DNA of 35,404 nt. Source: a virus. Below are positions 3,800-24,503 of the stretch, piece after piece; within the stretch, counting starts at the first letter, position 1, and each line of letters begins with the position of its first letter. The stretch covers positions 1 to 35,404 of IMG/VR virus record IMGVR_UViG_3300025322_000905. One strand, given 5' to 3'. The translations under genes and the position numbers were made by a program. A model generated the notes under the pieces. It was not told the DNA's origin. It saw only the letters and a program-made list of their open reading frames with translations, and did not search any database.

Positions 3800-4279
3800 C
3801 TACACCGCCTCATGGTTCAGAATGGACAATTTGCCGGTCACTCCCGCGCCCCCCGCAGCTAGGGTGATGGCCATAGCGGTGTTGTTAGCACCCTTCTTTG
3901 GCCGGGGGAACTCGATAGCGCCCGGCCCTTCTTCGTGAATGTCTATGTTGAAGATCACGGTTGCACCATCTGTGACTTGTAAATTGCCCCCTACGGGGAT
4001 GCCGCCATAATAGCTCCAGGCAATCCCGGTAATGATGTGACTCCTGGGTGTGGCATCAGCAGCATACGTAACAACAGCGGCAGTGTTAGCAGCAGGCGCA
4101 TGCACATCAGCCGCGGCGCCTAGAATTGGTTCAGACTCCACCGCCTGCGCCACTCCCCCCGCCTGCAACTGGACAGGCAGCGGCTCACTCTGACAAACGC
4201 GCCGTGCCTCGCCCCGCACATTGTCCCACCAGTAATGTAGAATCTTGGTGATTGGCCCACCCTGAATTGACTCAGTCAC
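3800..4279 (-). CDS. Probable virion surface/structural protein (159 aa)
   Basis: GTG 4279 has GGAGGT eight bases upstream, inside the end of the DUF1360 gene, which it overlaps by eight bases. The sequence is beta-rich with many small residues (AAVVTYAADATPRSHIITGIAWSYY; GGNLQVTDGATVIFNIDI was seen as alternating strands). It ends KLSILNHEAV. Such compact beta-sandwich proteins are common among head-decoration and tail proteins. No known motif was recognised, so the assignment rests on composition and position ahead of the DUF1566 gene. Confidence 0.65.
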   Translation of the reverse strand: MTESIQGGPITKILHYWWDNVRGEARRVCQSEPLPVQLQAGGVAQAVESEPILGAAADVHAPAANTAAVVTYAADATPRSHIITGIAWSYYGGIPVGGNLQVTDGATVIFNIDIHEEGPGAIEFPRPKKGANNTAMAITLAAGGAGVTGKLSILNHEAV

Positions 4280-4619
4280 GGTCCGTTACCTCCCAAAGCC
4301 AGATTGCGCCCCCCGACAGGGCGAGCCAGACAACCAGTATTGCTAAACCGGTGTGCCAGAAAAGGAGCAAGGCCACCGGAATCGCCACCCACATGCTCAG
4401 ACAACGGGGGCAGGACACAGCCCGCCCTAGATTGCTCCGTGCTCGCCACTGTGCAGACGTGCCCGGCAACCGCGGCGTCGGGTCCTCCCGATACTCGTAG
4501 GCGCCCAGCCAGGTACGAAGGGCCACACACCAATCGCTGGGGCCGTCGTCCACTGCGAGCAGGACAGAGAGCCGGTAGACGGACAGCACGCCCAGCAAGA
4601 ACAGGAACAGGTCAGGCAC
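4272..4619 (-). CDS. DUF1360-like small membrane protein (115 aa)
   Basis: Starts at GTG 4619, two bases after the stop of the glycosyltransferase gene. Three hydrophobic segments are visible (LFLFLLGVLSVYRLSVLLAV; MWVAIPVALLLFWHTGLAIL; VVWLALSGGAIWLWEV). The central CPRCLSMWVAIP resembles the C-x-x-C-x-x-x-W signature of DUF1360 membrane proteins, known from Firmicutes and phages; function unknown. Direct linkage to the glycosyltransferase makes an inner-membrane helper for glycan work possible, but a lysis or holin-like role cannot be excluded. Confidence 0.65.
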   Translation of the reverse strand: MPDLFLFLLGVLSVYRLSVLLAVDDGPSDWCVALRTWLGAYEYREDPTPRLPGTSAQWRARSNLGRAVSCPRCLSMWVAIPVALLLFWHTGLAILVVWLALSGGAIWLWEVTDRD

Positions 4620-4620
4620 G

Positions 4621-4902
4621 TCAAGCCCGCCGAAACCAGTTGGGCGCCGCTGCCAGGTCGGCCGGATGAACCATGAAGCGGTCGCCACCGCCTCTCCGCC
4701 CATAGAACGTATGTGTAGCCGGGCCGTAGATGTGGTGGGCGCCACGGTTCAGGCTCAGGTACTCCACCATCACCAGGCTCTCGACAAACTCGGCGGAGAC
4801 AGCGCCGTTCCCGTTCGCCGGTGCGCTGGCCTGCACCTGGTCCGTCGTCGGCGCTGGCACAGTTGCCGCCCGCGTCTTCTTGTTGCACGCGCCACAAGCC
4901 AT
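4621..4902 (-). CDS. Nested in-frame product: stand-alone C-terminal domain of the glycosyltransferase gene (93 aa)
   Basis: Inside the 886-codon gene, codon 794 is an ATG at 4902 preceded by AGGAG with an 8-base spacer, which is as good as the sites used by neighbouring genes. Translation from it would give a 93-residue protein starting MACGACNKK, with a disordered Pro/Ala/Thr linker and then a compact domain (VEYLSLNRGAHHIYGPATHTFYG). Small proteins with a Cys pair followed by a YGP-x-T-type beta domain occur alone in many phage structural clusters (from memory). It may have become fused to the glycosyltransferase, keeping its own start. Confidence 0.45.
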   Translation of the reverse strand: MACGACNKKTRAATVPAPTTDQVQASAPANGNGAVSAEFVESLVMVEYLSLNRGAHHIYGPATHTFYGRRGGGDRFMVHPADLAAAPNWFRRA

Positions 4903-7281
4903 CTTCTTTGCTCCTGAGTGATAGTCGGCCCACTTGGTGAGAATGTGTTGTTTTAGTTGCTCGAAGTGATTGACAAGGGAAGTGTCCCGCCGCTCGCCAC
5001 TCCACATGTCATACTGAACAAGTGGCTCCGCCAAGTGCACGGGGCACCAGCCCGCGGCGCAAACGGCAATGTAAAAGTCCCAGTCTTCCCAGCCAGGCAT
5101 GCTTTCGTCGAAACCGCCCACCAACAGCCAGGCGTCCCGCGGTAGCAGCGTCGTTACCGGGTGGTGAGAATGCCGCAAGTTGTCCTCACCGTCGATATCC
5201 GGACAATGATGGCGGACCCTTTTGTCGCCTTCGCGCTTCATAAAGTCGGTGAAGACGTACTCCTTGACCTCTCGCCGATCGGACTGCCCCTGTCGCCAAA
5301 CGGAAAGCGTCCTTCGTAGGAACTCCGGGTGTAGCCAGTCGTCGGCGTCCAGAAACACCAGAAACTGCCCCTTGCTGGCGACAACACCCGCGTTGCGGGC
5401 CGCTCCAGCGCCGCTGGCCGCTTGCGCCGTCTTGACGACTTTGGCAAACGGGAAGCCCGACAGCGTCAGCCCGCCGCCTGTGTCGTCCACTACGACGACC
5501 TCCCAGTCGGGCTCTGTCTGCGCCACTACCGAGTCAAGGGCCTTGATTACCCGCTGCTCATGGCCGGGGCCTACCGGGATCACCACCGAAACGACAGGAT
5601 TGGCGTGCGAGCGCACCAGGTAGCTGAAGCGGTCCGCCCGTTCAGTCGAGGGCGCCAGCGCACCGTAGGGCGCAACAAGCTTGTCTCGTGCCCAGGGAAA
5701 CCACTCTGTCCAGTCCCGCGAGACGGGCTCAACACGGCCCATCGAGTCCTGGCGCTCCCGCTTAACCAGGTAGGGTGCCTCTGTGACTTTGGCGGGCCGG
5801 AAGCCGTAGGAGGTGACACGGCACCAGAAGTCGGCGTCCTCCGCTGTACGGATGTGCTCGCGGTAGCCGCCCACTCGCTCCCACACGCGGCGCCTGTACA
5901 GAGAGCAGTACGGCAATTGGTTGAACTGCCGCATCTGGCGTTCCATGCGGAACGCTTCAGGCCAGCCGCCGCGCTGCATCGCCCGCCGCTCGGGCGGCGC
6001 ATCCTGAAAGTACTCCATGTGGCCGTAGGCGATGTCTACCCGGCGGTCTTTGTCCAGTCCGTCGGCCAGCGTCTGCAGCGCGGTAGGCGTCAGCATATCG
6101 TCGGCGTCCAGCGGCAGGATGTAGCGGCCCGTGCTGGCTCGAATGCCGTAGTTGCGGGCGCCGGCCAGGTACAAGTTGCTCGGCGTACGCACATAACGGA
6201 TACGCGGGTCCCGTGCCGCGTACCGCTGCGCCACCTCAGCCGTGTCATCGGGCGAGCAGTCGTCTACGATAAGGCACTCCCAGTCGGCGTCCTGCTGTGC
6301 CAGGATCGAGTCCAAGCACTCCGGCAGGTACTGTGCCAGGTTGTAGCAGGTGACGACGACCGAAGTGCGCGGCTGGCGGCGTTGCGTCTCCCACTCGCTC
6401 AGCGCCCGCTCGTACACCGCAGCGTACTGGCCGATCACGTCCGCCCACTTGTAGTGCTCCAGCACGTGCGCCCTGGCCGCGGCGCCTAGTTCAGCGCGGT
6501 TGTCAATGCAATAACGCAAGCCCTGCCTCAGTGACTCATAGTCGCCCGGCTTGGCTAGCCAGCCATGCTCTCCGTGCCGCATGATGTCGAGCTGCCCGCC
6601 GTGCGCCCAGCCCAAGACGGGGACGGCGGCGGCCATTGCTTCCAGGGTGCCAATGCCGAAGGTCTCACGGGCCAGGCACAGGTAGATGCCGGCATTTCTC
6701 ACAAACTCCTGCATGCGCGGGTACGACATCTGGCCAGTGATCTCGACGTTGTTGCGGGGCTCGCCAAACGTCGAGACGAACCTGACGCCCGGCTCCATGG
6801 CCGCCAACTGGTTCATTTCGCGGGGGTCGCACACCACGTCAGCCCGTGCCTTGTTCCACAGGACGTAACCCTGGTTCTCGCCGGGCTCCCACTCGTCAGG
6901 GTCGATTCCGTGGCCGATCACCGTGACGGGCGAGCACAACCCGCGGCGCATGGACGCGGCTACCCACTCGCTCGGCGCTGTCAACAGGTCGGCCCGCCGC
7001 AGGTTGACGAGCACATGCGCATTGGCAGGGCGAGCCCAGTCGCCAAACTCCATTTCCGCTGTCCAGTAGAGGCCGTGCGAGGATGCCACCCACGGCTTGT
7101 TAATGTGCAGGTCGGCATAGTTGCCAGCATGGCAGTTGAGCACGTCGGCCCCGTAGGGGTCTTCGGTGACTTCCCAGCCGTAGGCGGGCAGGTGCTTCGT
7201 TTGGGCCTCAGAAACTCTCCGAATTCCACCATCCCCTACGTCCGGCTGCTTGAATTGCGGGACGATCCAGACCTTCTTCAA
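4621..7281 (-). CDS. Triple-domain glycosyltransferase (GT4 + GT2 + GT2) with C-terminal virion-like domain, 886 aa
   Basis: Residues 1-290 form a GT4-type (GT-B) transferase with the E-x7-E motif at 206-214 (ETFGIGTLE) and a shortened N-terminal half. Residues about 305-555 are a GT2 (GT-A) domain (SVVVTCYN, VDDCSPDD, DxD-type LDADD at 391-395, acidic pair AEDADFW near 481). Residues about 563-790 are a second GT2 domain (SVVIPVGPGH, VVDDTGGG, FLDADDW at 643-649, GWEDWDF). Residues 794-886 start with MACGACNKK and contain YGPATHTFYG, resembling a small phage structural domain. Each GT transfers a sugar from an activated donor, so one polypeptide could add up to three sugars in order. No signal peptide or membrane segment is seen, so it is probably cytoplasmic. 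It leads the glycan/tail part of the late operon. Confidence 0.9.
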   Translation of the reverse strand: MKKVWIVPQFKQPDVGDGGIRRVSEAQTKHLPAYGWEVTEDPYGADVLNCHAGNYADLHINKPWVASSHGLYWTAEMEFGDWARPANAHVLVNLRRADLLTAPSEWVAASMRRGLCSPVTVIGHGIDPDEWEPGENQGYVLWNKARADVVCDPREMNQLAAMEPGVRFVSTFGEPRNNVEITGQMSYPRMQEFVRNAGIYLCLARETFGIGTLEAMAAAVPVLGWAHGGQLDIMRHGEHGWLAKPGDYESLRQGLRYCIDNRAELGAAARAHVLEHYKWADVIGQYAAVYERALSEWETQRRQPRTSVVVTCYNLAQYLPECLDSILAQQDADWECLIVDDCSPDDTAEVAQRYAARDPRIRYVRTPSNLYLAGARNYGIRASTGRYILPLDADDMLTPTALQTLADGLDKDRRVDIAYGHMEYFQDAPPERRAMQRGGWPEAFRMERQMRQFNQLPYCSLYRRRVWERVGGYREHIRTAEDADFWCRVTSYGFRPAKVTEAPYLVKRERQDSMGRVEPVSRDWTEWFPWARDKLVAPYGALAPSTERADRFSYLVRSHANPVVSVVIPVGPGHEQRVIKALDSVVAQTEPDWEVVVVDDTGGGLTLSGFPFAKVVKTAQAASGAGAARNAGVVASKGQFLVFLDADDWLHPEFLRRTLSVWRQGQSDRREVKEYVFTDFMKREGDKRVRHHCPDIDGEDNLRHSHHPVTTLLPRDAWLLVGGFDESMPGWEDWDFYIAVCAAGWCPVHLAEPLVQYDMWSGERRDTSLVNHFEQLKQHILTKWADYHSGAKKMACGACNKKTRAATVPAPTTDQVQASAPANGNGAVSAEFVESLVMVEYLSLNRGAHHIYGPATHTFYGRRGGGDRFMVHPADLAAAPNWFRRA

Positions 7282-7294
7282 CCTTCTCGCTCCT

Positions 7295-7927
7295 CTATTG
7301 CCTGGTCAGCAGGCAGATGCTACAGCTCTCCAACCACCAGGGCTGAAGACGCTGGAAGTCCGGGCCCAGCCCGACCAGATCAGCGTCTGTAATCTCCGCA
7401 CCCGGCCCGTGCCCAGGCTTGCCCGGTGCGTAGTCGTGCGCGGCAATCAGGTCGCCGGGCTTGAGCAGCGGCGCAAACGTCAGCACCTCTCGCGGCTTGT
7501 CGCCACCGTCACAGTAGACTAGCGTCAGGCCAGGCCGGGCAACGAACTCGCGGGCCTCTGCCAGGAAGGCATCACCAAAGCAGTCCTGCAAACGTAACGC
7601 CAAGCCGGTGGTACTGGCCAGATCGACGCGGGTCTTGGGGGCAAGTAGGGCCGCGTTGATCTCCACCGTCAGCGCCTCGAACGGCGTCCAGGAGAACAGG
7701 GTCCGTGCAGCCAGCAGACTGGCCAATCCGCCGCGGTGCGTGCCGATCTCCAGCACGCGTACCACTTGGTGCTGCTGCACAGTCATCAGCACAGCACCAA
7801 TTTCAAGCCACGACTGTGCTACTGGCACACCGGTAGGCCATAGCCCCCCTATCTGCCGCCAGGTATCAGGCCCCAATGGACCGCCCGGCCGCGTTGGTTC
7901 CATGCATGCATCCGGAAACGTTTTCAT
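7295..7927 (-). CDS. Class I SAM-dependent methyltransferase / CmcI-like protein (210 aa)
   Basis: Contains a Rossmann motif I (VLEIGTHRGGLAS, about residues 58-70), an acidic residue ending strand 2 (LTVEIN) and a motif typical of Methyltransf_24/CmcI-type enzymes (LVYCDGGDK followed by LLKPGDLIAAHDYAPG). These enzymes methylate sugars or small molecules, and in glycan loci they usually cap or modify sugars. ATG 7927 overlaps the upstream methyltransferase stop by four bases (ATGA). It lies just before the triple glycosyltransferase, supporting a glycan-modifying role. Substrate unknown. Confidence 0.8.
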   Translation of the reverse strand: MKTFPDACMEPTRPGGPLGPDTWRQIGGLWPTGVPVAQSWLEIGAVLMTVQQHQVVRVLEIGTHRGGLASLLAARTLFSWTPFEALTVEINAALLAPKTRVDLASTTGLALRLQDCFGDAFLAEAREFVARPGLTLVYCDGGDKPREVLTFAPLLKPGDLIAAHDYAPGKPGHGPGAEITDADLVGLGPDFQRLQPWWLESCSICLLTRQ

Positions 7928-8592
7928 ACTCCCGCCCCACTGGGCAGCGTGGGCGTGCCTTTGCTGAACACTTGCAGGTCAGCGGCCAGGTAGCCATGTG
8001 GCGTGTGCATGTGCGTCCACAGGACCGCCAACTGCAGCGTCAGGCCGTAGTGGTAACTCAAGCCCTCATTGCTCAGTAGCCACCGCCAGTACACCGGTGG
8101 CTGACAAGTCAGGTGCCCATCGCCTTGCTGGCCGGGCAGCGCGGCAGTGAAGACGAGCACGCCACCCAACTGGACATGCCGAGCCAGCGTAGCACAGAGA
8201 GAAGCGGCGCTGCTGGGCGGCAGGTGCTCTGCTACCTCCAGACAGGTCACAACAGTGAACTCTCGTCCCAGGTCCAGCGACTGCCGCAGGTCACGCACCA
8301 GCAGGTGCGCGTCCGGCCGCGGCAGCAGGTCCACGCCCCAGGCGTCCACACCCAGTTTACGCGCTGTGTTGACATAGACGCCCGTGCCCGATCCCACGTC
8401 CAGATAGCTCTCCGGTATGCCAAACAGGGCTAACAGGGCTAGACAGTGACGGGTGTTGTCGGCATCGAAGGCTCCCAGGCCGTTCAGCCAGCGGGCCACC
8501 TCTTCGGGCAGCAGCAAGTCGCCGGGTGGGCTACCCAGGTACTGGCGTGGCGGCTGCGCCCACTGGCGAGGCTCTATGGTTCGTTTGGCCAT
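7924..8592 (-). CDS. SAM-dependent methyltransferase (222 aa)
   Basis: ATG 8592 (MAKRTIEPRQW) is chosen because AGGAGAATAGGAGA precedes it and the longer frame upstream overlaps the glycosyltransferase gene. The motifs are those of a class I methyltransferase: YLDVGSGTGVYVN (motif I), GVDLLPRPD, VVTCLEVAEHLPP (motif II/III region) and LGGVLVFTAALPGQ. The pattern LEVAEHLPP resembles Methyltransf_11/23 proteins that act on sugars or lipids. Part of the same tightly packed glycan operon; substrate unknown. Confidence 0.8.
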   Translation of the reverse strand: MAKRTIEPRQWAQPPRQYLGSPPGDLLLPEEVARWLNGLGAFDADNTRHCLALLALFGIPESYLDVGSGTGVYVNTARKLGVDAWGVDLLPRPDAHLLVRDLRQSLDLGREFTVVTCLEVAEHLPPSSAASLCATLARHVQLGGVLVFTAALPGQQGDGHLTCQPPVYWRWLLSNEGLSYHYGLTLQLAVLWTHMHTPHGYLAADLQVFSKGTPTLPSGAGV

Positions 8593-8596
8593 TCTC

Positions 8597-9382
8597 CTAT
8601 TCTCCTGCTCTCTCTTCTGGCACCAGGCCAATACCGGCCGTACTGGTCTGGCGTGTCTCCTGCTCTTGCCAATCCTGGCCGGGCATGAGGCCGCCCAGAC
8701 TGGCGCCACCGATGTGGCCGAAAGGCCCCCACTGGCCAATCCAGCCAGGCCACACGACGGCCGGGCCATCCTGGCGATTGAACCGCGCAGCGAACTCGCC
8801 CTCCGTGTCCCCCGGACATAAGCCCTCGACGTAAAGCCCATAGGCATTGCGAAAGCGGTGGTGACGCAAGCTGGCGTGTCCTGTGAAGACGTAACCGTCA
8901 TGGCTGCGCTGCTTGTCCAGTAGCCACCACATATTCGACGTGCCCGGCAAAGTATCCGGGATCAGCATGCCTGCCATGCCAATCTGCAGGTAGCCCAGGC
9001 GAGCCATGCCAACGTGCTCGTTATCGCGCAGGAAACGCACACAAGGCGACAGGTCGAACGGACGTTGCAACTCCCAGTCGTCTTCCAGCCACAGCACAAA
9101 GTCCGACCGTTGCCAGCACTCTGCTTGCCCCAGGTTCATGCTGCGGCCGACGCCGGCGCGCATGGTATCAGTCCAGGTCACCTCCGAGGTGCGTGGGTCC
9201 TGCCAGGCAGCGGCCACCAAGCGTTCGATATGCTGGCCACCGGAGCCGTCGTCAGCGATGTGATAGTGCAGCGCGCCAGGGTACTCCAACAGCCTGACTA
9301 CTCCCCGGAGCGTACGCAGCGCCAACTCCTGCCGCTTGTAGGTGATAAGCAGAACGGAGACTTGCGGCCAGGCGTCAGTCAT
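8597..9382 (-). CDS. Family 2 (GT-A) glycosyltransferase (261 aa)
   Basis: Start ATG 9382 (MTDAWPQVSVLLITYKR) overlaps the upstream gene by ATGA. The N-terminus is a classic GT2 nucleotide-binding start (VSVLLITYKRQELALRTL), followed by ADDGSGG and the metal-binding acidic cluster WLEDDWE near residue 123. The protein lacks a membrane anchor and ends in a short Gln/Glu-rich tail. It probably transfers one sugar from a nucleotide-sugar donor in the cytoplasm, working with the triple glycosyltransferase downstream. Confidence 0.8.
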   Translation of the reverse strand: MTDAWPQVSVLLITYKRQELALRTLRGVVRLLEYPGALHYHIADDGSGGQHIERLVAAAWQDPRTSEVTWTDTMRAGVGRSMNLGQAECWQRSDFVLWLEDDWELQRPFDLSPCVRFLRDNEHVGMARLGYLQIGMAGMLIPDTLPGTSNMWWLLDKQRSHDGYVFTGHASLRHHRFRNAYGLYVEGLCPGDTEGEFAARFNRQDGPAVVWPGWIGQWGPFGHIGGASLGGLMPGQDWQEQETRQTSTAGIGLVPEERAGE

Positions 9383-9828
9383 CGCCACGGCCCCACGCGC
9401 TCTTGTGGTGCTGGTGTATTCACAGCCCACACCGTTACCCGACCATCTGGCCACTGGTGCAAACCGAAGCTGTCCAGGTCCGCGAGCCAGTGATACAGCC
9501 ACTCAACTCGCACGCCACGGCCCTCCGCTGTCGGCAGGAAGCAGCACTCAAGACGGCCACCGGGGCGGAGTACACGGAAGCTCTCTTGCAAAAGAGCGCC
9601 AGGCACCTCCAAGTCGAAGATGCAGCATTGCCAAGTTACTACGTCTTTACTGCCATCCTTGCTGCCGCGCAGGGTGGCAACCAGATTGTTGGCCGGGTGA
9701 GATTGGGCATAGGCCATTCGCTTACCGCTAGCCTGGCAGCAAAAGTCGCGCTTGGCGTCCTCTGGGTCTACCGGGTCCGCCTGCCCCACTGCCACCTTGT
9801 CTAACCGCATCGCTTGCCAAATCGTCAC
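9379..9828 (-). CDS. Short methyltransferase-like protein (149 aa), probably degenerate
   Basis: The segment LLQESFRVLRPGGRLECCF matches the late part of class I methyltransferases, where V-L-(R/K)-P-G-G-x-L follows strand 4. It also has WQCCIFDLEVPG before it and a variable C-terminus. A clear Gly-rich SAM motif I is missing from the N-terminus, which instead reads AMRLDKVAVGQADPVD. This is either a truncated methyltransferase or a family with a reduced fold (such short forms occur in phages). It overlaps both neighbours by four bases. Confidence 0.6.
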   Translation of the reverse strand: MTIWQAMRLDKVAVGQADPVDPEDAKRDFCCQASGKRMAYAQSHPANNLVATLRGSKDGSKDVVTWQCCIFDLEVPGALLQESFRVLRPGGRLECCFLPTAEGRGVRVEWLYHWLADLDSFGLHQWPDGRVTVWAVNTPAPQERVGPWR

Positions 9829-10052
9829 GCTCGCTCCTCCTCACTCTTATGGCTGGTTTTCACGGCTTTTTTGCCTCTTGGCAAAAGAAGGTGGCCATAC
9901 CGTTTTCTGGTTTCTGCCTCGGTATGAGGCAGGGCAATCCGATTGCCATATATCGCGTTAATGCGATCAGCTAATGCTGAATCAATCTCACTCAGGTCAC
10001 AAGTGGACAGTGGGCCCCTGGGCCACAACGGGAACTTGCTATGGTTAACCAT
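9825..10052 (-). CDS. Small basic hypothetical protein (75 aa)
   Basis: Starts at ATG 10052 within the end of the dehydratase gene, whose run of GAG codons supplies the ribosome binding site. The protein has a conserved-looking middle (LSEIDSALADRINAIYGNRIALP) and a basic C-terminus (LLLPRGKKAVKTSHKSEEERA). No domain is recognised. It is in the glycan operon and overlaps the next gene by ATGA, so it is very likely expressed. Confidence 0.6.
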   Translation of the reverse strand: MVNHSKFPLWPRGPLSTCDLSEIDSALADRINAIYGNRIALPHTEAETRKRYGHLLLPRGKKAVKTSHKSEEERA

Positions 10053-11091
10053 TCTCCTCCTCCTCACTCTCTCTAATGGCCGCCTGCATACCCGGTATGC
10101 TCAGTTGCACCTTTGCCGTATCTGTCCGGTACTCGTAGCCGTCTGACAGATGGCCAGAACCGGCCGTGGGCGGGAAGATCCAGAACCCGCTCTCGTCCGG
10201 CAGTTCTTCCGCGTGCGGCGCTTCCCCCGAGTGCAACAGGTGCTCTTCCAGCTTCTCGCCAGGACGAATGCCGATGTCCGTGATGGGCGCGCAGTCCGTC
10301 TCTCTTCTGACGACTTCCATGAAACTGGTAGCTTGGCGGTTATCTCTGGTCATCTCCCACACTGCCTCAGCCAGCACGTCCACTTTCATGGTCGGACACT
10401 TCGGCACGACGATCACGCCGGCCGGCGTAGCCAGCGCACACAGGATTAGATCCACCGCGTCCTGCAGCGTCAGCCAGAAGCGATTCATCCGGCGGTCGGT
10501 CACCGTCAGGGGTCCGCCAGCCGCGGCCTGCCGCTGAAACAGCGGGATGATCGAGCCCCGCGAGCCGATCACGTTGCCGTAGCGTGTCAGGTGAAACTGG
10601 GTGCTGCCCCAGGTATTCGCCTGCTGGAAGACCGACTCCATGATGGCCTTCGACTTACCATAACAGTTGATGGGCTTCGCTGCCTTGTCAGTCGAGATAC
10701 CCACCACCTGCTTGACGCCACAGCGCACAGTGGCCATGGCTACGTTGCAGCTCCCGCAGACGTTCGTCTTGACGGTCTCGTGAGCGTTGGCTTCCGCGCT
10801 GGGCACAACCTTGAGTGCGCCGGCATGAATCACTATGTCCTGGCCCTGGCAGGCTAGCAGCAGCGCGTCCAGGTCGCGCACGTCACCAAGCACATACCGG
10901 CACTGCGGATACCGCGTCTTCATCTGGCCCTGCTTCACCTCGTCCCTTGAGAAGACGGTAATCTTGCACGGCCACTGCTCACGCCGGGCCCGGCGCACGA
11001 TGGCCTGGCCCAGCGAGCCGGTGCCACCCGTGACCAGCACGCGGCCTTCAAGCCGGTTGCCGGGGTTCAGATGCAGCAGCTTAGCGTCAGC
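10045..11091 (-). CDS. NDP-sugar 4,6-dehydratase-like SDR (FlaA1/PseB/CapD family, 348 aa)
   Basis: The start is ATG 11091 (MADAKLLHLN) with AGGAAGG upstream. An extended short-chain dehydrogenase: dinucleotide motif VTGGTGSLGQ at 21-30, then VLGDVRD (acidic adenine pocket), an active-site region ISTDKAAKPINCYGKSK at 133-148 giving Tyr144-x3-Lys148, then LTRYGNVIGSRGSIIP and the C-terminal mark GIRPGEKLEEHLL. This pattern is the PseB/FlaA1/CapD group, which removes water from UDP-GlcNAc-type sugars as the first step to deoxy-amino sugars. It lacks the membrane segments of large CapD proteins, so a soluble PseB-like enzyme is most likely. In this operon it probably supplies a modified donor for the glycosyltransferases. 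Confidence 0.85.
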   Translation of the reverse strand, partial: ADAKLLHLNPGNRLEGRVLVTGGTGSLGQAIVRRARREQWPCKITVFSRDEVKQGQMKTRYPQCRYVLGDVRDLDALLLACQGQDIVIHAGALKVVPSAEANAHETVKTNVCGSCNVAMATVRCGVKQVVGISTDKAAKPINCYGKSKAIMESVFQQANTWGSTQFHLTRYGNVIGSRGSIIPLFQRQAAAGGPLTVTDRRMNRFWLTLQDAVDLILCALATPAGVIVVPKCPTMKVDVLAEAVWEMTRDNRQATSFMEVVRRETDCAPITDIGIRPGEKLEEHLLHSGEAPHAEELPDESGFWIFPPTAGSGHLSDGYEYRTDTAKVQLSIPGMQAAIRESEEEENG

Positions 11092-11305
11092 CATCGAGGG
11101 CACCTTCCTGACTTGCCTGTTTTTCAATGCGTATGCTAATCAGTAACTTGATTGGCACAACAAAGCTATCCATGCCAGTAGTCACTGATAGCAGATCATT
11201 GTCTACCTGCCAAGAGATGCCTTTATCCGACATGGCTTCCCATGTGGCTTGCTGATGAGATTCCGGTCTAGTCACATAACGTAGAGTGCATTTCAATCTG
11301 CTCAA
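11087..11305 (-). CDS. Small protein (72 aa), apparent paralogue of the next upstream gene product
   Basis: The start is a TTG at 11305 (TTG-AGC-AGA) with AGGAG only three bases away; the next in-frame TTG at 11296 would be better spaced. The C-terminus reads VVPIKLLISIRIEKQA, which matches IVPLSRLLVMTVEKEA in the gene at 11339-11557, and both start with Ser-Arg. The pair therefore looks like a tandem duplication. Beta-strand-like, no known domain. It overlaps the dehydratase start by five bases, so it is co-translated with it. Confidence 0.6.
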   Translation of the reverse strand: MSRLKCTLRYVTRPESHQQATWEAMSDKGISWQVDNDLLSVTTGMDSFVVPIKLLISIRIEKQASQEGALDG

Positions 11306-11338
11306 CTTCTCCTGCTCCTTGCTCCTTCTGTCGATCCC

Positions 11339-11557
11339 TCAAGCATGACCGTTGCTCCCTGCCACCGCCTCTTTCTCGACGGTCATCACCAGCAGACGGG
11401 ACAATGGGACGATAACCCGCTCCCGCAGGCCCTCGACGAAGACCATGCCCTCGCCGTAACGCACGTGCTCTCCAGTCGGTGCGATTTCGATCTTCTTGCG
11501 GTTACTGCCGCCACTGGTTGGCGTAGCTTCATACTCAACCACTATGAATCTGCTCAC
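11339..11557 (-). CDS. Small protein (72 aa), tandem paralogue
   Basis: Starts at GTG 11557 with AGGAGG five bases upstream, in the end of the preceding gene. Predicted strands (RFIVVEYEATP, KKIEIAPTGEHVRY, GMVFVEGLRERVIVPL) suggest a small beta-barrel or Sm/SH3-like fold. Its last third resembles the 72-residue protein downstream. It follows the capsid gene closely; a head-related function such as decoration or RNA/DNA contact is conceivable but unsupported. Confidence 0.65.
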   Translation of the reverse strand: MSRFIVVEYEATPTSGGSNRKKIEIAPTGEHVRYGEGMVFVEGLRERVIVPLSRLLVMTVEKEAVAGSNGHA

Positions 11558-11558
11558 G

Positions 11559-11789
11559 TTACCTCCTCTTTTCTCCTCGCTCCTGCTGCAGCTTGTAAAA
11601 GACGACTTTGGCTCGCGGCCAGATGGCGTCGCCGTCCAGGCCGTGCACGATGAACTGCTCAGTCGTCTCTTCGATGTCATCTTTGCTCCTGACCCGCACG
11701 GCTTCTACGCCCAGCCGCTCACTGCCGGTGTCGTAGAAAACCTTGCAGAGCAGAGGCGTCTCCTCGGTGGCCACTACCTGCTGCACCAT
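11559..11789 (-). CDS. Small hypothetical protein (76 aa) downstream of the capsid gene
   Basis: Starts with ATG 11789 just after the hairpin that follows the capsid gene, with only a weak ribosome binding site (GAG eight bases upstream). The sequence alternates strands and charged turns (LCKVFYDTGSERLGVEAVRVRSKDDIEE) and ends basic. Its stop lies one base before the next start. Similar in size and layout to the two paralogues that follow, though I could not align it convincingly to them. Confidence 0.6.
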   Translation of the reverse strand: MVQQVVATEETPLLCKVFYDTGSERLGVEAVRVRSKDDIEETTEQFIVHGLDGDAIWPRAKVVFYKLQQERGEKRR

Positions 11790-11806
11790 GCTTTACTCGC
11801 TTCTCT

Positions 11807-11835
11807 AAAGGCGAGGGGAGGATTCTCCCCTCGCC
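11807..11835 (-). terminator. GC-rich hairpin after the capsid gene, weak terminator or attenuator
   Basis: Two 11-base arms (GGCGAGGGGAG on one side, its complement on the other; 11810-11820 and 11825-11835) enclose a four-base loop. On the minus strand it is followed by only TTTAG, so termination would be partial. Lying right after the capsid gene, it could make capsid mRNA more abundant than the genes downstream. Confidence 0.6.
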
Positions 11836-11856
11836 CACTACCAGGCTAGCTATCTG

Positions 11857-13344
11857 CTAGTCCCACTCACTGTACAGCGTGCCAGGCGACCGCGTAGAGG
11901 TGCCGCCCTTTACAAAGTACGGGTCGGTCCCGCCGGTGATCTGGGTGTCAAACGGGCTGCGGAAGTGCTGCAGCGGCGCGTACATGATGTTCTGTACCCG
12001 GCCCGCCAACTGCGGAGTCCGCAGGATGAGCCGCGGCTTCATGGTCACGTTGTCGTGGAAGCAGCGGCCCGTGAACGTGCGGTCCACCAGGAAGCGGCCA
12101 TTATCCGTGATCCATACCCGCGAGTTCAGACTTTCGTTTTCCATCCGCACGCCGGCCAACGTCTTGCGGAAGTCCTGATACTCGAAGTAGGTCACGGGCG
12201 TTCCGTGCGCCGACAGCGGGATGAAGTAGATGTCGGACGCGAACTGGCCCGGCTGCAGGTTAGCGTTGTTGGCATTGTTGTTCTCGAAAATGCCGTCATC
12301 CAACACTACCTCGAGTTGCCGGCCATTGACCATCAGGTACATGCCCGCCCGCATGCTGTCACGCAGCTTGATCGTCTCGCCGGTGTCCACGAAGGGTGTC
12401 GCACTGGAGTTGACGTTGCAGCGGTAGGTCATGTAGCGGCAAGCCCAGACCTCGGTCAGAGAGTACCACAGTTCCGGCCGCATGGCCAGTATCCAGCGCG
12501 CCGGGTCCAGGCCCATGCGGCTGGCGTTGTGGTACAGGTACGCCTCCATCATCGCTACGACCTCGATGATGTCCGGGCCCGATGCCGAGGCCACATTGCC
12601 GTAGTTGAAGTTCTTGATGTCGCTGTCGGCGGCGGCGCAGGCTACGTTGGTGTGCGCGTCAACCTTGCCGGTGCCGATCAGGATGTCGAACCCCGGGAAT
12701 TCCCAGTAGCCCTGGCCGACGTTGCGCGTCGGATTGCCCTGGAAGATCATCTGCTGGAACACTCGCTGCATCATCACTGCAGCCTCGACAGCGGCCCACT
12801 CGATCTCGTTGGTGATGAGCGTGCCATGACCAGCGCCAGGAATGGGCGAGCCGTCGGGGCCAGTGATCGAGCCCATCATGCGCAGACGCGTCTCGCCCGG
12901 TGTGCGGCGAGTATTGATCTCCGTCAGGCTCAGCTCTTTGGTGCCGCGGCAGATCTTGCCGAACTGAGCCGTCAGGATGCAGCCCTCGGACTCGCCGATG
13001 ATACAGTCTGAGCAGCCGCCGCTCGGCTCACTCTGGCCACCGACCTGCTCGAAGCCGGTCAAGATGGCAAACTCCGGATTGGTGATGTCCGTGCCGAACG
13101 CGGGCAGCAACGACTCTAGGCCCCGAGGGCCTACCGAGGCGTTGATGAGCGTCTGGTCCAGACCGCAGACGCCGAAGAAGCCGGCCGTCACACCGGGTAC
13201 GGGCGAGCCGTACATCAGGTTGCCCGTCGGCGTACCGGGGGTGACCTGCTTGACGCCAGTGCCAAACGTGTTACGGCTTTGGGCCATAATCAGCGCATTG
13301 GCGAAGGCGTCGGCGAAAACCCTTGGATCAAGCTGGTTGATCAT
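11857..13344 (-). CDS. Major capsid protein (HK97-fold type, 495 aa)
   Basis: Placed directly after the protease/scaffold gene, of the right size and composition for a major capsid protein. It has an N-terminal helical arm (MINQLDPRVFADAFANALIMAQ), long beta-rich stretches, a helical section with a conserved-looking WAAVEAAVMMQRVFQQMIFQGN, then SGPDIIEVVAMMEAYLYHNASRMGLDPARWILAMRPELW, and a late SDIYFIPLSAHGTPVTYFEYQDF. These match the layout of large HK97-fold capsid proteins from metagenomic siphoviruses; I recognise the class, not a named family. Its ATG has GGAGG nine bases upstream. Several Cys residues (CSDCIIGESEGC) near residue 110 could bind metal or cross-link. Confidence 0.8.
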   Translation of the reverse strand: MINQLDPRVFADAFANALIMAQSRNTFGTGVKQVTPGTPTGNLMYGSPVPGVTAGFFGVCGLDQTLINASVGPRGLESLLPAFGTDITNPEFAILTGFEQVGGQSEPSGGCSDCIIGESEGCILTAQFGKICRGTKELSLTEINTRRTPGETRLRMMGSITGPDGSPIPGAGHGTLITNEIEWAAVEAAVMMQRVFQQMIFQGNPTRNVGQGYWEFPGFDILIGTGKVDAHTNVACAAADSDIKNFNYGNVASASGPDIIEVVAMMEAYLYHNASRMGLDPARWILAMRPELWYSLTEVWACRYMTYRCNVNSSATPFVDTGETIKLRDSMRAGMYLMVNGRQLEVVLDDGIFENNNANNANLQPGQFASDIYFIPLSAHGTPVTYFEYQDFRKTLAGVRMENESLNSRVWITDNGRFLVDRTFTGRCFHDNVTMKPRLILRTPQLAGRVQNIMYAPLQHFRSPFDTQITGGTDPYFVKGGTSTRSPGTLYSEWD

Positions 13345-13434
13345 GTGGAGGAGCCTCCGTTATGTTAGATTTGGCTCGCTCCTCGCTCCTACCAGCTAAC
13401 TACTCCACAGACACGCTGTCTGTCAGGCTGGTGC

Positions 13435-13977
13435 CTAGCGTGGCACCTGATTGATCGGGCGATTCAGTGGGTAGTTCGGGTTCTGGTCTACGGGCCCGGC
13501 GTTGGCTTCCAGCAGCTTCTTGCCCTCTTCCGATTCCGGATCCACTACCGTCTTGGCGTCCTGCGTTGGGCGGTAGAACGCTATGCGCGGCAAGTCCAGT
13601 ACGGCGGCCTTGACGGCCTCGCTGTGGCCGACCTCGACCTTGGCCAGCCTGGCTTCCATTGCAGCCATCCTGGTGTCCGTCGCTTTCTGCGCCGTCGAAA
13701 GGCCGGTCAGTTGCTCGCCAATGGCCTTGTTGGACGCGGCCAACTCCACCATCAGCGGGCTACTAGCGAAGGCTTCCGCGAGAGCCTTCACGTCCAGCGC
13801 GGGCGGCTCGACCGGTGCGACCTTTTGGGCCGGAGCGCCCTCGCTACCCTCCTTGAATGCTATGCCCTTTTCCTCGAGCTCCTTCGTCTTCTGCTCCGCG
13901 GCCGCGATTATGGCGGCCGCCTCGTCCGCTCCGAAAACGCTTTCCAGAGCCTTCCGCTTGGTTTCGTCCAGCGGCAT
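13435..13977 (-). CDS. Nested in-frame scaffold protein inside the protease gene (180 aa)
   Basis: Codon 403 of the protease gene is an ATG at 13977, preceded by AAGGAGGT with four further bases before the start. This is the strongest ribosome binding site in the region, placed exactly at the junction between protease and helical scaffold part. The product begins MPLDETKRKALESVFG and would be a free scaffold without protease. The same nested layout is known from lambda (Nu3 in C). Inferred from sequence only. Confidence 0.55.
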   Translation of the reverse strand: MPLDETKRKALESVFGADEAAAIIAAAEQKTKELEEKGIAFKEGSEGAPAQKVAPVEPPALDVKALAEAFASSPLMVELAASNKAIGEQLTGLSTAQKATDTRMAAMEARLAKVEVGHSEAVKAAVLDLPRIAFYRPTQDAKTVVDPESEEGKKLLEANAGPVDQNPNYPLNRPINQVPR

Positions 13978-15183
13978 GTTGACCTCCTTGGCCAAAAATT
14001 GCGTCCAGGGGTTGGCGGCGGCCGCCCCCGGTAACACCGAACGTTCGACTATCTCTAGCCACTCGTACACGCCGTCAGCCCGATCGGCCGACTTGTAGCG
14101 GTAGCCATGACTCATCTTTAGATCCTCGTCAGGATGGGCCAGGAAATAGGCCAGGGCCTTCTCTCCCCTGGGCGTGTCGGCGAACGTGCCTGACTCCACC
14201 AGGATACGCCCCACAACGCCGCGCCAGTCGGCCTGACCGAAGTCGCTGCCGGGTACGTGCCAAAACCAGAGTTGGCGATTCTCGGCTGGCCACTCCTTAT
14301 CTGACCGCAGCACCTCTTCTTCCAGGCTTTGGGTCGTGAAGATCTCAGCCTCTTTGTCGGCAAAGCCGTTGGTCGTCCAGCTCACCCAGCGGGCAAGCCC
14401 GGCCTTGTCGCGATAGACCTTGAAGCCCTGCTCATGACTGCCAAAGTCGGGAAGGTCCTTCTTGGCTGGCATGTCCTCGTCCTGATGTTCATCCTCGTAA
14501 TTCGCCCACTTCATCACATCCAGCATGGCGTCCAGCATGGCCTTGAGCTTTTCCCGCATGCGCCCCATAACGCGCCTGCCCTCTTTAATGCCCGACGGCA
14601 TCTCGTCCGGGTCCTTGTCGGGGTTCGCCTTTTTCCAAGCGGCCCGCACACGAGCGACGACGGCGGGCCGATCGGCGTCGGGAATGTCCACCCGTTGGCC
14701 ACGAAAGCCAGGGCCTAACGCGGCAGCGGCGGCACCGACGATACCCGGATCAGGGCTGCCGCCTGGCGTAGCGGTCAACCTGAGCCTCCATTCGCTCGGC
14801 TTGTCACTCGGTGTATAAGCAAAATCTGACTTGGGAAACGGTGTGCCGTCCTCCGTTTTCATGGGCGGGCCGTCTGCCTTCTCTGCCTGCTCTTTCGTGC
14901 TGGCCTTGGGCTGGTAGATCATCTCCACCTCGACCGGCTCGCCCAGCGTCACCTCGTCCTTGGCGTTGACCGAGTAGGGGATCTCGTACAGGTGGCAGGC
15001 ATGGCCAGGACCATTCACCTCCACGATCACGCGGTCCTTGTAGACAGCTTTCAGCCAGCGATATGGCATCTCGGCCATCATCGGCATGGCCATGCTCATG
15101 TCCCGCGGCGGGTTAAGCACCTTGTGAATGGCGCTGTGCAAGTCTTCGTGCGAAAGCTCCTTGATGTCGGTTAGAGTATCCAC
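13435..15183 (-). CDS. Prohead serine protease fused to scaffold (582 aa)
   Basis: GTG 15183 follows AAGGAG with 7 bases. The N-terminal quarter (1-130) is a phage domain with HLYEIPYSV; residues 170-205 (RAAWKKANPDKDPDEMPSGI) form a short helical module. The protease lies about 255-395: TTNGFADKEAEIFTTQSLEE, then WFWHVPG with His309, TFADTPRGEKALAYFL, and KMSHGYRY with Ser358, followed by VLPGAAAANPWTQF. This is the order of the herpes-assemblin-like S78/XkdF prohead proteases. From about residue 400 the sequence is helical and acidic (coiled-coil-like), as in scaffolds, and it ends in a Pro/Asn-rich tail. It would guide capsid assembly and then cut scaffold and capsid. It lies immediately upstream of the capsid gene. 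Confidence 0.8.
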   Translation of the reverse strand: MDTLTDIKELSHEDLHSAIHKVLNPPRDMSMAMPMMAEMPYRWLKAVYKDRVIVEVNGPGHACHLYEIPYSVNAKDEVTLGEPVEVEMIYQPKASTKEQAEKADGPPMKTEDGTPFPKSDFAYTPSDKPSEWRLRLTATPGGSPDPGIVGAAAAALGPGFRGQRVDIPDADRPAVVARVRAAWKKANPDKDPDEMPSGIKEGRRVMGRMREKLKAMLDAMLDVMKWANYEDEHQDEDMPAKKDLPDFGSHEQGFKVYRDKAGLARWVSWTTNGFADKEAEIFTTQSLEEEVLRSDKEWPAENRQLWFWHVPGSDFGQADWRGVVGRILVESGTFADTPRGEKALAYFLAHPDEDLKMSHGYRYKSADRADGVYEWLEIVERSVLPGAAAANPWTQFLAKEVNMPLDETKRKALESVFGADEAAAIIAAAEQKTKELEEKGIAFKEGSEGAPAQKVAPVEPPALDVKALAEAFASSPLMVELAASNKAIGEQLTGLSTAQKATDTRMAAMEARLAKVEVGHSEAVKAAVLDLPRIAFYRPTQDAKTVVDPESEEGKKLLEANAGPVDQNPNYPLNRPINQVPR

Positions 15184-15197
15184 ATCTGTCTCCTTAT

Positions 15198-15749
15198 CTA
15201 GTCCACGTCCCCGGCGTAAATAGCCGCCGCAACTGCGTGCAGCACAATCGCGTGCACGTCTTCCACGACGCCATAGCTGTTAGACTCAACCAGGATGGCC
15301 AGGTCCGCCTGCTGCACCAGCGGCACTTGCGCCACAGGTTGCCCGGCCTTACCCGCTAGTCCGACGACATAGCAGCCCACGTCACGCGCCGCCTGCACGG
15401 CCTTGAGGATGTTCTTAGACTGGCCCGACGCCGAAATAGCGATCAGCACGTCGTCAGACTCAGCCAGGTTTTCGATTTGGCGACTGAACACCTCGGCAGG
15501 TGGCCAATCATTGACGAGCATCGTCAAGATCGGGCCACTGTCCGCCAGCGAGCAAGCTCGTACGCCGAGTTTGAGCAAGTCCACCGCGGCATGCGCTGCT
15601 GTTGCCGCCGAGCCGCCGTTGCCCACCAGATAGACGTGTGCGCCGGTCTCACGGGCTGCACGGATCACGTGAGCTAGTTTGTCGAGGAGCGCAATGTCCA
15701 GGCTCTCGATTGCCGCATAGACGCCAGCCAGATGATGCTCGATCGCCAA
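15198..15749 (-). CDS. gmhA: Phosphoheptose isomerase-like SIS protein (GmhA family, 183 aa)
   Basis: A single SIS domain: GNGGSA at 43-48, LIAISASGQSKNILKAV at 102-118, and a C-terminal helix with EDVHAIVLHAV. This fits GmhA, which turns sedoheptulose 7-phosphate into D-glycero-D-manno-heptose 7-phosphate. The helix after GNGGSA reads AHAAVDLL, with Asp where E. coli GmhA has its catalytic Glu; this resembles the SIS subtype usually found beside HddA. I chose TTG 15749 (AAGGG upstream) because it gives the normal family length; a GTG at 15812 would overlap the kinase gene by 56 bases. It pairs with the kinase immediately upstream, its next pathway step. Confidence 0.8.
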   Translation of the reverse strand: MAIEHHLAGVYAAIESLDIALLDKLAHVIRAARETGAHVYLVGNGGSAATAAHAAVDLLKLGVRACSLADSGPILTMLVNDWPPAEVFSRQIENLAESDDVLIAISASGQSKNILKAVQAARDVGCYVVGLAGKAGQPVAQVPLVQQADLAILVESNSYGVVEDVHAIVLHAVAAAIYAGDVD

Positions 15750-15756
15750 AGATACT

Positions 15757-16743
15757 TTACCCTTTGTAAGCAACCTTGCTTCCTTCCGACTCAACACGCC
15801 ATGCCACCTCACGCAGTCCAGTGAGCGCGGCCCGCACCGCTATCTTGCGCTCTAACGCACAGCACACCAGCAGGAAGCCGGTGCCACCTGCACCCAACAA
15901 TTTGCCACCCGTAGCGCCCGCGGTAATGGCCCTGTCTAGTGCCGCTTGCACAATCCCGTTGCCGATGCCGGGCGCAAGCTGCTGCTTCGCGGCCCAGCCA
16001 GATTGCAGGTACGAGCCCAATAGGCCAGCGTCTACACCCTGTCCCAACGCACCAGCCAGGTCAAGAGCTAGACGTCGCAGGTGCTTGAGGTGCTCACTAC
16101 ACTCTACCGTTCGCTCACTCTGGCACTCCAGGATGCTACCTGCCCGGCGAGTGCCACCCAGATAGAATAGCAGCAAGTACGCTTCCAGGTTGCGCCGCAG
16201 GCCCTTGCTGTCCTTGGCGTCGTCCAGCCTGGCCTCGCTTACTAAACCGTTAGCAGCGAACGTATACTGCCGCACGCCACCGTAGGCCGCGGCGTACTGG
16301 TCTTGCTTGCCAATTGAATGGCCCAGCACGTCGATCTCAACTCGACAAGCTTCCCTGGCCAGTTGCTCGGGCGAAGGCCAGCAACGCTTGAGCACGTGCA
16401 AGGCGTGCAACACGCCAACGGTGTAGGCCGACGACGAGCCCAGGCCGGTGCCGGCCGGGATGTCGGCCACTGACACAATCTCGACGCCTTGCTCGACGCC
16501 GACCAACCGGCAGCACTCACGCGCCAGGTCGTGCTGCACGTCGGCCACCGAGTCTACCACCTCGTTGCGGTCGTAATGTGACACTCGCACCCGCCCGTCA
16601 AACTTAGGGTTGACGGCGATGTAGACGTACTTGTCAATCGTGAAGGAAACGACGGCGCCACCGCTAATGGCCTTGTAGGCCGCGGGCAGGTCGGTGCCAC
16701 CACCAGCGAGGCTGACGCGAAGAGGCGTGCGGGTCAGGATCAT
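15757..16743 (-). CDS. hddA: GHMP kinase, D-glycero-D-manno-heptose 7-phosphate kinase-like (HddA, 328 aa)
   Basis: The N-terminus ILTRTPLRVSLAGGGTDLP is the start typical of HddA and related sugar kinases. The GHMP ATP-binding loop is PAGTGLGSSSA (96-106), and the third motif is GGKLLGAGGTGFLL near the C-terminus. The family phosphorylates heptose 7-phosphate at C1 on the way to GDP- or ADP-heptose. ATG 16743 overlaps the upstream gene by ATGA. GmhB and the nucleotidyltransferase are not in this window, so the host or other phage genes would have to finish the pathway. Fucokinase-like activity is an alternative. Confidence 0.85.
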   Translation of the reverse strand: MILTRTPLRVSLAGGGTDLPAAYKAISGGAVVSFTIDKYVYIAVNPKFDGRVRVSHYDRNEVVDSVADVQHDLARECCRLVGVEQGVEIVSVADIPAGTGLGSSSAYTVGVLHALHVLKRCWPSPEQLAREACRVEIDVLGHSIGKQDQYAAAYGGVRQYTFAANGLVSEARLDDAKDSKGLRRNLEAYLLLFYLGGTRRAGSILECQSERTVECSEHLKHLRRLALDLAGALGQGVDAGLLGSYLQSGWAAKQQLAPGIGNGIVQAALDRAITAGATGGKLLGAGGTGFLLVCCALERKIAVRAALTGLREVAWRVESEGSKVAYKG

Positions 16744-17030
16744 GCTAGCCTGCCCATTGCCCTATCGAACTCGCGCCGCTCGCCATAGACGCTGATCAGG
16801 GTTAGGCCATGCTCCGCATGCTGCCGCATAAACTCGCAAAACGAAGGATCGTCGCCGTTCTCGTTCAGAATATCCACCCTCAGCATCAGCCAGTTTGCGT
16901 TTGATTCCTCGATTCCTAAGATGTAGGGCCACAATCGCACCAGTTCGGCCAACCATTCGGGATGTGTACTAAACCAGCACGGCGAATCAACCCCGCAGTC
17001 CTCACAGCGGAGGCCCCAATGATCGCTCAT
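16740..17030 (-). CDS. Hypothetical protein (96 aa) with a Cys cluster
   Basis: ATG 17030 overlaps the stop of the gp10-like gene (ATGA). The N-terminus carries CEDCGVDSPC, possibly a zinc site; the rest is helical and acidic (HPEWLAELVRLWPYILGIEE). No family is recognised. It links the connector gene to the sugar kinase gene by four-base overlaps on both sides, so it is translated between virion and sugar genes. Confidence 0.65.
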   Translation of the reverse strand: MSDHWGLRCEDCGVDSPCWFSTHPEWLAELVRLWPYILGIEESNANWLMLRVDILNENGDDPSFCEFMRQHAEHGLTLISVYGERREFDRAMGRLA

Positions 17031-17425
17031 CCGCCTGCACTCTTGAGCAGCTTCACGATAGCACCGCGGGCCACGTTCCAGAGCGTCGGTGCTACCTCCA
17101 TAACGCGAGGCCAACTACGGCGGGCCATCTCCCGCGTTTGCTGCTCACCCTCCACCCATTTCGCATACGGGGCGATGTTGGCATTCGAGCCCACCGAGGC
17201 CACCAGCGCACCGCCAACTTTGCGAGCACGGACGATGGACCAGGAGCGCATCAGAGTGCCGGTCCTGATGTAGCCCGAAACGGTCGCTTGTTGCGGCGGG
17301 TAAGTGGCCATCTTGTCTTCGACGTCGGCGACAAAGCCGTTCAGCTCACGCTCCAGTTTGCCCTGCAGGCCGGTGGTCAGGACGATGGTCTTCTTCGGCT
17401 TGATGCTGGTGAAACGAACAGGCAT
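17027..17425 (-). CDS. HK97 gp10-like head-tail/tail component (132 aa)
   Basis: Matches the HK97 gp10 family pattern: a basic N-terminus, a helix ending before a strand, then YIRTGTLMRSWSI, GGALVASVGSNANIAPYAKWVEGEQQ, and a closing helical stretch. These proteins sit at the head-tail junction or tail terminator and are usually 110-150 residues long. It lies a few genes after the portal, as expected for a connector gene. ATG 17425 is two bases after the preceding stop. Confidence 0.75.
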   Translation of the reverse strand: MPVRFTSIKPKKTIVLTTGLQGKLERELNGFVADVEDKMATYPPQQATVSGYIRTGTLMRSWSIVRARKVGGALVASVGSNANIAPYAKWVEGEQQTREMARRSWPRVMEVAPTLWNVARGAIVKLLKSAGG

Positions 17426-22785: not shown

Positions 22786-22814
22786 ATTATAGCCGTTCGC
22801 CAGCGAGGTGTCTA
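22786..22814 (-). promoter_or_regulatory. Sigma-70-type promoter for the late block
   Basis: Minus strand: TAGACA, 17-base spacer, TATAAT. The -10 lies about 33 bases before the regulator's TTG start. It faces away from the plus-strand promoter at 22907-22935, with about 90 bases between the two -35 boxes. Confidence 0.75.
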
Positions 22815-22906
22815 GCCAGGCTGCCCAGTTTGATTAAGCAAGCTCTCTCTATAACAAGCACTAAGGCGCTCTTTTGCAAACTGGTATAAACTGGTGTCAA
22901 AACCTA

Positions 22907-24502: not shown

Positions 24503-24503
24503 C

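Follow-up and report, generated by a model that had tools for sequence, protein, structure and literature searches.

Gene content and layout of the locus

The stretch of DNA analysed here (the window) comprises the entire 35,404-base IMG/VR virus record IMGVR_UViG_3300025322_000905, which is classed as linear. Between its portal gene (17702-20008) and its appendage genes (below 4279) lies an island of sugar-related genes that encloses the gene of the major capsid protein (MCP) and includes a tri-domain glycosyltransferase (GT), denoted GTx3. All recognisable genes, the named sugar genes included, are located on the minus strand. The window proteins were scanned against Pfam, NCBIfam, and PHROG families and compared with PDB sequences; structures were predicted with AlphaFold and compared with Foldseek. 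Read from right to left, the island is preceded by genes for an XPF-like nuclease, a primase-polymerase/D5 helicase, a sigma-70-like factor, terminase proteins, a portal fused to a MuF domain, and a gp10-like protein. The order then continues with a kinase, an isomerase, a protein at the scaffold position, the capsid protein, a dehydratase, the methyltransferase (MT)-like MT1, GT2a, MT2, MT3, GTx3, a DUF1360 protein, and appendage-like proteins (Table 1). No tRNA genes were found in the window.

A first-pass annotation had described sugar-donor genes, four GT domains, and three methyltransferase-like genes between head and tail genes, joined by 4-base overlaps. All of the named genes are present, with weak matches for MT1 and GT2a, and the overlaps are real at four junctions (16740/16743, 9825/9828, 9379/9382, and 7924/7927) after mending of gene starts, the listed open reading frame (ORF) starts being too long for several genes, among them GT2a, MT2, and DUF1360. 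The location is borne out by the portal, capsid, and appendage-like flanks. The clearly identified tail genes (tape measure, Dit, and minor tail) lie outside the 35-kb fragment and follow the locus in the near-complete relative G001. The 495-amino acid (aa) protein encoded in the middle of the island has no sequence match among Pfam and PHROG families; according to its predicted structure, it is an HK97-fold capsid protein.

Close relatives are G002, of which 16 kb are identical to the window, and G001 (60.9 kb, circularly permuted with respect to the window), which harbors the same locus without MT2 and with tail genes beyond it. In the more distant G003, the capsid gene is followed by a dehydratase, MT1, GT2a, two MT2 genes, MT3, GTx3, and DUF1360. 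Comparison of the window with G001 yields ratios of non-synonymous to synonymous substitution rates (dN/dS) of 0.05-0.33 across 14 genes, among them 0.053 (capsid protein), 0.067 (GTx3), 0.11 (dehydratase), 0.12 (kinase), 0.24 (isomerase), and 0.33 (MT1). GTx3 is under strong purifying selection, close to that on the MCP. Since these 14 genes are constrained and the layout is kept in distant relatives, the locus is real beyond chance.

Table 1. Features of the window in right-to-left gene order, with the matches on which each name is based
Feature	Coordinates	Strand	Basis and remarks
Large terminase subunit (TerL)	20012..21475	-	PHROG terminase large subunit E 5e-7; identity 91% in G001, 70% in G003
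Portal fused to MuF-like head-morphogenesis domain	17702..20008	-	PHROG portal E 6e-26; Pfam Phage_Mu_F E 9e-8
HK97 gp10-like / neck protein	17027..17425	-	Weak: Pfam HK97-gp10_like E 1.4e-3; PHROG tail completion E 1.5e-3
GHMP sugar kinase, HddA-like (heptose-7-phosphate kinase family)	15757..16743	-	Pfam GHMP_kinases_N E 2e-14; 4-base overlap with preceding ORF
SIS-domain sugar-phosphate isomerase, GmhA-like	15198..15812	-	SIS_2 E 2e-15; true start probably 15749-15797
Scaffold/protease-position protein, upstream of capsid gene	13435..15183	-	PHROG 19463 (function unknown) E 6e-31; position kept across family
MCP, HK97 fold (predicted)	11857..13344	-	AlphaFold mean predicted local distance difference test (pLDDT) 76; Foldseek E 3e-10 to phage capsids
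UDP-sugar 4,6-dehydratase, FlaA1/PseB/CapE-like	10045..11127	-	Polysacc_synt_2 E 1e-79; dN/dS 0.11
MT1, short methyltransferase-like	9379..9828	-	Weak: Methyltransf_11 E 4e-5, C-terminal domain part only; dN/dS 0.33
GT2a, glycosyltransferase family 2	8597..9382	-	Glycos_transf_2 E 1e-5 (weak); start mended from 9502 to 9382; 4-base overlap with MT1
MT2, class I methyltransferase	7924..8592	-	Methyltransf_23 E 1e-10; start mended from 8901 to 8592
MT3, sugar O-methyltransferase-like (CmcI type)	7295..7927	-	Via G003 homologue
GTx3, GT4-GT2-GT2 glycosyltransferase, 886 aa	4621..7281	-	Both GT2s E 1e-57; CxxC linker and conserved C-terminal beta domain
GTx3 C-terminal domain	4624..4800	-	Conserved in about 38 relatives (hidden Markov model search); AlphaFold pLDDT 85
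DUF1360 membrane protein	4272..4619	-	Pfam DUF1360 E 7e-6; start mended from 4745 to about 4619; after GTx3 in most relatives; hydrophobic segments

GTx3 and its inheritance with the capsid gene

Scans with capsid and GTx3 alignments retrieved some 50 further contigs. These were reduced to a non-redundant set of 29 contigs that carry both genes at less than 90% GT identity, the window and G001 being counted as one. The order scaffold, MCP, variable sugar genes (0 to 9.5 kb), and GTx3 is found in all 29. GTx3 always lies 3' of the MCP gene on the same strand, at a distance of -64 to 9475 bp (median 5.3 kb), and the interval is usually occupied by sugar genes. The genes behind it are usually DUF1360, one at the connector position, one probably for the tail tube, and that of the tape measure; the connector and tail-tube labels are given by position only, those of tape measure and minor tail by PHROGs.

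Since contigs chosen by GTx3 show this gene by construction, a set of 17 contigs chosen by the capsid only was also analysed. Ten of them encode GTx3 (E 1e-292 or better), and these are all of the contigs with at least 6 kb downstream of the capsid gene; the other seven are cut off 0 to 5.9 kb past it. As far as can be seen from these sequences, GTx3 is a core gene of this capsid lineage. Mantel correlations with MCP distances were 0.83 for the portal, 0.68 for the connector, 0.64 for the tail-tube position, 0.58 for the scaffold, and 0.53 for GTx3 (each P 0.0005), compared with 0.007 for the dehydratase and 0.06 for the HddA kinase (both not significant) and weak values of 0.31 for GT2a and 0.34 for MT2. 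Both negatives are themselves weak, the dehydratase set being a mixture of several short-chain dehydrogenase/reductase (SDR) subfamilies and the HddA set consisting of 11 contigs. Since GTx3 tracks the MCP while dehydratase and kinase do not, the pattern resembles a constant enzyme of assembly supplied by donor cassettes that are exchanged. The refuting condition named in the first-pass annotation, loss of the genes in related phages unconnected with virion type, thus fails for GTx3, which is linked to the capsid type, and partly holds for the kinase/isomerase pair, which comes and goes among relatives.

GTx3 homologues are about 800-1100 aa long. The acidic motifs of the GT2 domains (D392, D394, and D645-D648) are invariant or near-invariant in the alignment of relatives. 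The three GT domains are followed by a fourth part, which consists of a CxxC motif, a variable linker, and a small beta domain with the consensus V-x-x-E-Y-x-G ... Y-x-F ... D. This C-terminal domain also occurs in L184, on a single-GT2 protein encoded immediately behind the capsid, and by itself as small ORFs in L148, L112, and L170. PHROG and Pfam scans of the domain gave nothing useful, and two candidate folds were rejected as too weak, namely that of the lambda gpFI C-terminal domain, a head protein (Foldseek best E 1.5), and that of a GINS subunit (VIA Z at most 3.7). Docking of this modelled domain on the virion would be a guess at its role.

A near-identity DNA search of a phage collection with the window gave no match; neither did capsid and portal protein searches among isolated phages, and hence no cultured relative was found there. 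A scan with a reduced capsid alignment detected three contigs of metagenome-assembled genomes (MAGs). The capsid gene was present in 6 of 396 Anaerolineae genomes versus 1 of 295 of another class, all on MAG-type contigs; several of these are phage-genome-sized or shorter, and their binning is possibly wrong. Anaerolineae may be taken as a lead to the host.

Enzymes for donor sugars and their modification

The dehydratase aligns with FlaA1 (PDB 2gn4, E 6e-63) across the STDK...YxxxK region, with the TDK and YxxxK motifs present (STDKAAKPINCYGKSK). Its best NCBIfam match is PseB (264 bits, below the equivalog cut-off of 407.75). GT2a homologues are located 3' of the capsid gene in many relatives. 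Of the three methyltransferase-like proteins, MT2 occurs in two copies in G003 and is missing from G001. MT3 of the window has no Pfam match; its G003 homologue matches RMNT_CmcI, a rhamnosyl O-methyltransferase family, just below the cut-off (E 1.5e-4). No glycine-rich motif I is visible in MT1, the dN/dS of which is the highest of the gene set, and this protein is possibly inactive. A 615-aa single chain composed of methyltransferase, GT2, and methyltransferase domains is encoded ahead of the connector gene in G003 (L101:2833-4680).

In the kinase, the GHMP motifs are intact (LAGGGTDLP, GLGSSSA, GKQDQYAAAYGG, and GAGGTGF) and conserved in 80 homologues. Its best NCBIfam match is HddA (99 bits, below the equivalog cut-off of 600), and the solved structures that match it best are those of heptose kinases (PDB 3k85, E 3e-37). 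The isomerase best matches GmhA types in NCBIfam (99.6 bits, below the equivalog cut-off of 276) and phosphoheptose isomerases in the PDB (1x92, E 3e-19). Both active-site histidines are invariant in 59 phage homologues, and all 59 carry Asp and Glu at two active-site columns where the solved GmhA 1x92 has Glu and Gln, so that HxxxD..K and E(D)..H replace HxxxE and QE..H. The classical residues are E65 and Q172 in E. coli numbering. Judged by these replacements, the phage homologues, including the window protein, possibly form a distinct isomerase subfamily.

The first-pass annotation had proposed methylated heptose or deoxy-amino-sugar glycans as possible products of these genes. A heptose or heptose-like sugar is plausible from the enzyme families present. 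It is unproven, since both enzymes fall far below the curated cut-offs, the remaining pathway genes have no copy in the window, and the pair does not lie near the G003 capsid gene; the Asp/Glu active site is a further reservation. The window showed neither a nucleotidyltransferase nor a phosphatase for the pathway; both would have to come from the host or from genome parts beyond the fragment. In favor of heptose, a nucleotidyltransferase related to the HldE type occurs near the GT in L139, L158, L149, and L141. Kinase and isomerase were not found in G003, and in G004 the kinase lies within the island, the isomerase about 18 kb off, with a different SDR; L132, L134, L139, L149, and L207 show arrangements similar to G004. 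The pair thus goes with this locus type, in varying arrangements, without being essential.

T4-like phages lend support to heptose, as they possess the same pair together with an HldE-type nucleotidyltransferase, an SDR, and a GT4. In their cassettes (nucleotidyltransferase, epimerase, GT4, HddA, GmhA), kinase and isomerase stand in the same order as in the window and usually overlap. The cassettes differ from the window locus in carrying that nucleotidyltransferase and in adjoining RNase H, PhoH, and ribonucleotide reductase genes, whereas the window locus adjoins structural genes. The T4-like cassette is conserved in dozens of viral contigs (L006-L083, e.g. L043:8015-12867 and L058:7557-10966). 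HddA-like genes are also present in isolated phages, among them Caulobacter phage Cr30 and two Synechococcus phages. Heptose isomerase, kinase, and nucleotidyltransferase have been described in viruses, which lack the phosphatase (Tang et al., 2024, as cited in PMC11461863); as represented there, this survey addresses heptose synthesis and immune sensing, and assembly loci are not its subject.

Probable virion glycosylation and competing explanations

Taken together, the sequence data indicate that this is probably a virion-glycosylation locus that forms part of the operon for head and tail assembly in a lineage of siphoviruses, combining a constant GT with swappable donors. The virion is favored as the target because of the place of GTx3, its co-inheritance with the capsid, and the selection acting on it, and because the enzymes appear soluble and no export genes were seen. 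None of the proteins of the sugar genes, GTs and methyltransferases included, has a convincing membrane helix, the dehydratase shows one doubtful segment, and no lipid-carrier, flippase, or polymerase gene was recognised among the scanned window proteins. Of the two roles that the first-pass annotation had suggested, virion glycosylation is therefore the best explanation of the locus, short of the level of the acceptor.

In the mechanism that we infer, including acceptor, sugar identity, order of addition, and benefit (shielding from receptors, debris or recognition), GTx3 would be the constant assembly-time enzyme, joining a short oligosaccharide to one of the proteins of the virion. The genes that separate it from the capsid gene would supply and decorate the sugars: the 4,6-dehydratase would yield a 6-deoxy-amino-sugar nucleotide, and the kinase/isomerase pair a heptose-like phosphosugar that is turned into a nucleotide donor with the help of host enzymes. 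GT2a would extend the chain, and MT2 and MT3 would cap it by O-methylation. Trading of donor genes among phages with retention of the GT would change the coat type and leave the assembly machinery constant. The first acceptor candidate would be the capsid protein, followed by neighboring appendage or tail proteins. A candidate site is the C-terminal tail of the MCP, a low-confidence part of the model, in which 66-80% of 35 homologues retain Ser/Thr at 4 positions.

A collagen-like, Thr-rich GAQGAT-repeat protein is encoded directly after DUF1360 in G003 (G003:39820-41310, from the end of L100 into L101) and is a possible glycan acceptor.

Several points weigh against virion glycosylation. The conservation of the MCP tail is unexceptional (rank 118 of 476 windows), and the co-inheritance of GTx3 with the MCP could stem from operon linkage alone. 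The GTx3 domains are as similar to polysaccharide GTs as to protein GTs, and the adjoining membrane protein DUF1360 fits a surface role. In L147, GTx3 directly follows the MCP gene with no gene between them, so that donor genes are not essential; the L147 GT would draw on host nucleotide sugars.

Some of these points would also suit the other role named by the first-pass annotation, a late remodelling of wall or envelope glycans that blocks superinfection or adsorption to debris. The gene types fit surface-polysaccharide loci, the best NCBIfam matches of GTx3 are polysaccharide GTs, some PHROG matches are GtrB-like seroconversion GTs, and G004 encodes a LytR-CpsA-Psr-like protein near probable lysis genes (L108:1721-2653, 20.7 bits, below the cut-off). 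Host-surface remodelling is nevertheless unlikely, as neither a polyprenyl-phosphate GT nor GtrA was recognised among the scanned window proteins, and GTx3 is tied to a capsid type and a head-tail position, a linkage that would be needless for a gene acting on the host surface. Lysogenic conversion is unlikely to be the general purpose: a tyrosine integrase occurs in 5 of 21 contigs and in none of G001, G003, and G004 (serine integrases were not searched). GtrABC-type seroconversion systems resemble the locus in employing family 2 phage GTs. They differ in that the island proteins have no Pfam GtrA match and that GTx3 is a soluble multi-domain protein, unlike the membrane GT GtrB. Bacterial O-antigen and capsule loci, such as those of the 6-deoxyheptose and PseB/FlaA1 pathways, likewise pair a constant set of processing genes with donor, GT, and methyltransferase genes that can be exchanged. 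Compared with these, the window island shows no export or polymerisation genes and is embedded in a phage assembly operon.

It is quite improbable that insertions are simply tolerated in this interval, between the capsid and connector genes, as hitch-hiking cargo of no single function. Its content does range from 0 to 9.5 kb and the donor genes are independent of capsid phylogeny, but GTx3 is always retained under strong purifying selection, and the recognisable content belongs nearly always to one functional class. Very improbable is a role of GTx3 itself as a part of the virion that uses its GT domains as sugar-binding modules: its size, its capsid-linked inheritance, and the extra C-terminal domain that also stands free would agree with it, yet the GT2 acidic motifs are conserved as is typical of active enzymes, and donor genes adjoin. 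DNA hypermodification, with GTs placing sugars on modified phage bases, is likewise very improbable: phage GTs frequently act on DNA (PMC12619734), yet the locus lies within the structural block, distant from replication genes, and a thymidylate-synthase-type protein (hydroxymethylase family) occurs in 1 of 27 contigs and in none of G001, G003, and G004; a Tet/JBP search gave 0 of 27 contigs with likewise empty positive controls.

Glycosylation of virions is itself known. Mycobacteriophages carry glycans on capsid and tail-tube proteins that shield them from antibodies (Freeman et al., 2023, as cited in PMC11256854, PMC12619734, and PMC12691614), and one of these accounts places the glycans at the C-termini of both proteins (PMC12619734). 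As related in these sources, those phages are alike in being siphoviruses with phage-encoded GTs; there the acceptors are capsid and tail-tube proteins, while here the capsid protein is a candidate. For F1 phages, of which Maravista is one, GT genes are described close to the 3' genome end (PMC11256854), in contrast to the present position of the tri-domain GT and donor genes between capsid and connector genes, which is kept across distant relatives. A limited search of the open literature found no description of a tri-domain GT that is locked to the capsid and served by exchangeable donor cassettes.

A farther-reaching version of virion glycosylation is put forward tentatively, as a possibility somewhat short of even: a siphovirus lineage may have made glycosylation core to its assembly, with the C-terminal domain of GTx3 for targeting, a type-specific, O-methylated and possibly heptose-containing capsid glycan, and swapped cassettes that amount to 'virion serotypes'. 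If this is true, donor cassettes are swapped among phages as bacteria swap O-antigen loci. Few phages have been shown to glycosylate their virions; a GT inherited with the capsid and combined with swapped donors would form a natural comparative system for the purpose of the coat beyond the setting of mammalian antibodies. It also suggests that many sugar genes in phage contigs regarded as 'auxiliary metabolic' or 'host takeover' genes may be assembly genes.

Some further observations concern neighboring regions. Window positions 22800-25000 have no convincing gene on either strand, and parts of them are conserved in G001 DNA. The appendage proteins (L087:1880-3343 and window 3012-3797; PHROG tail protein, Lcl_C domain) differ among close relatives, and this is likely a host-range region. 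In G004, a MuF-like protein (L106:14588-16261) is seemingly broken up by an intein-like insertion that two Cys-rich segments flank, and G003 harbors within the phage contig an ORF that resembles a TnpB-type transposon protein (L099:11887-13377).

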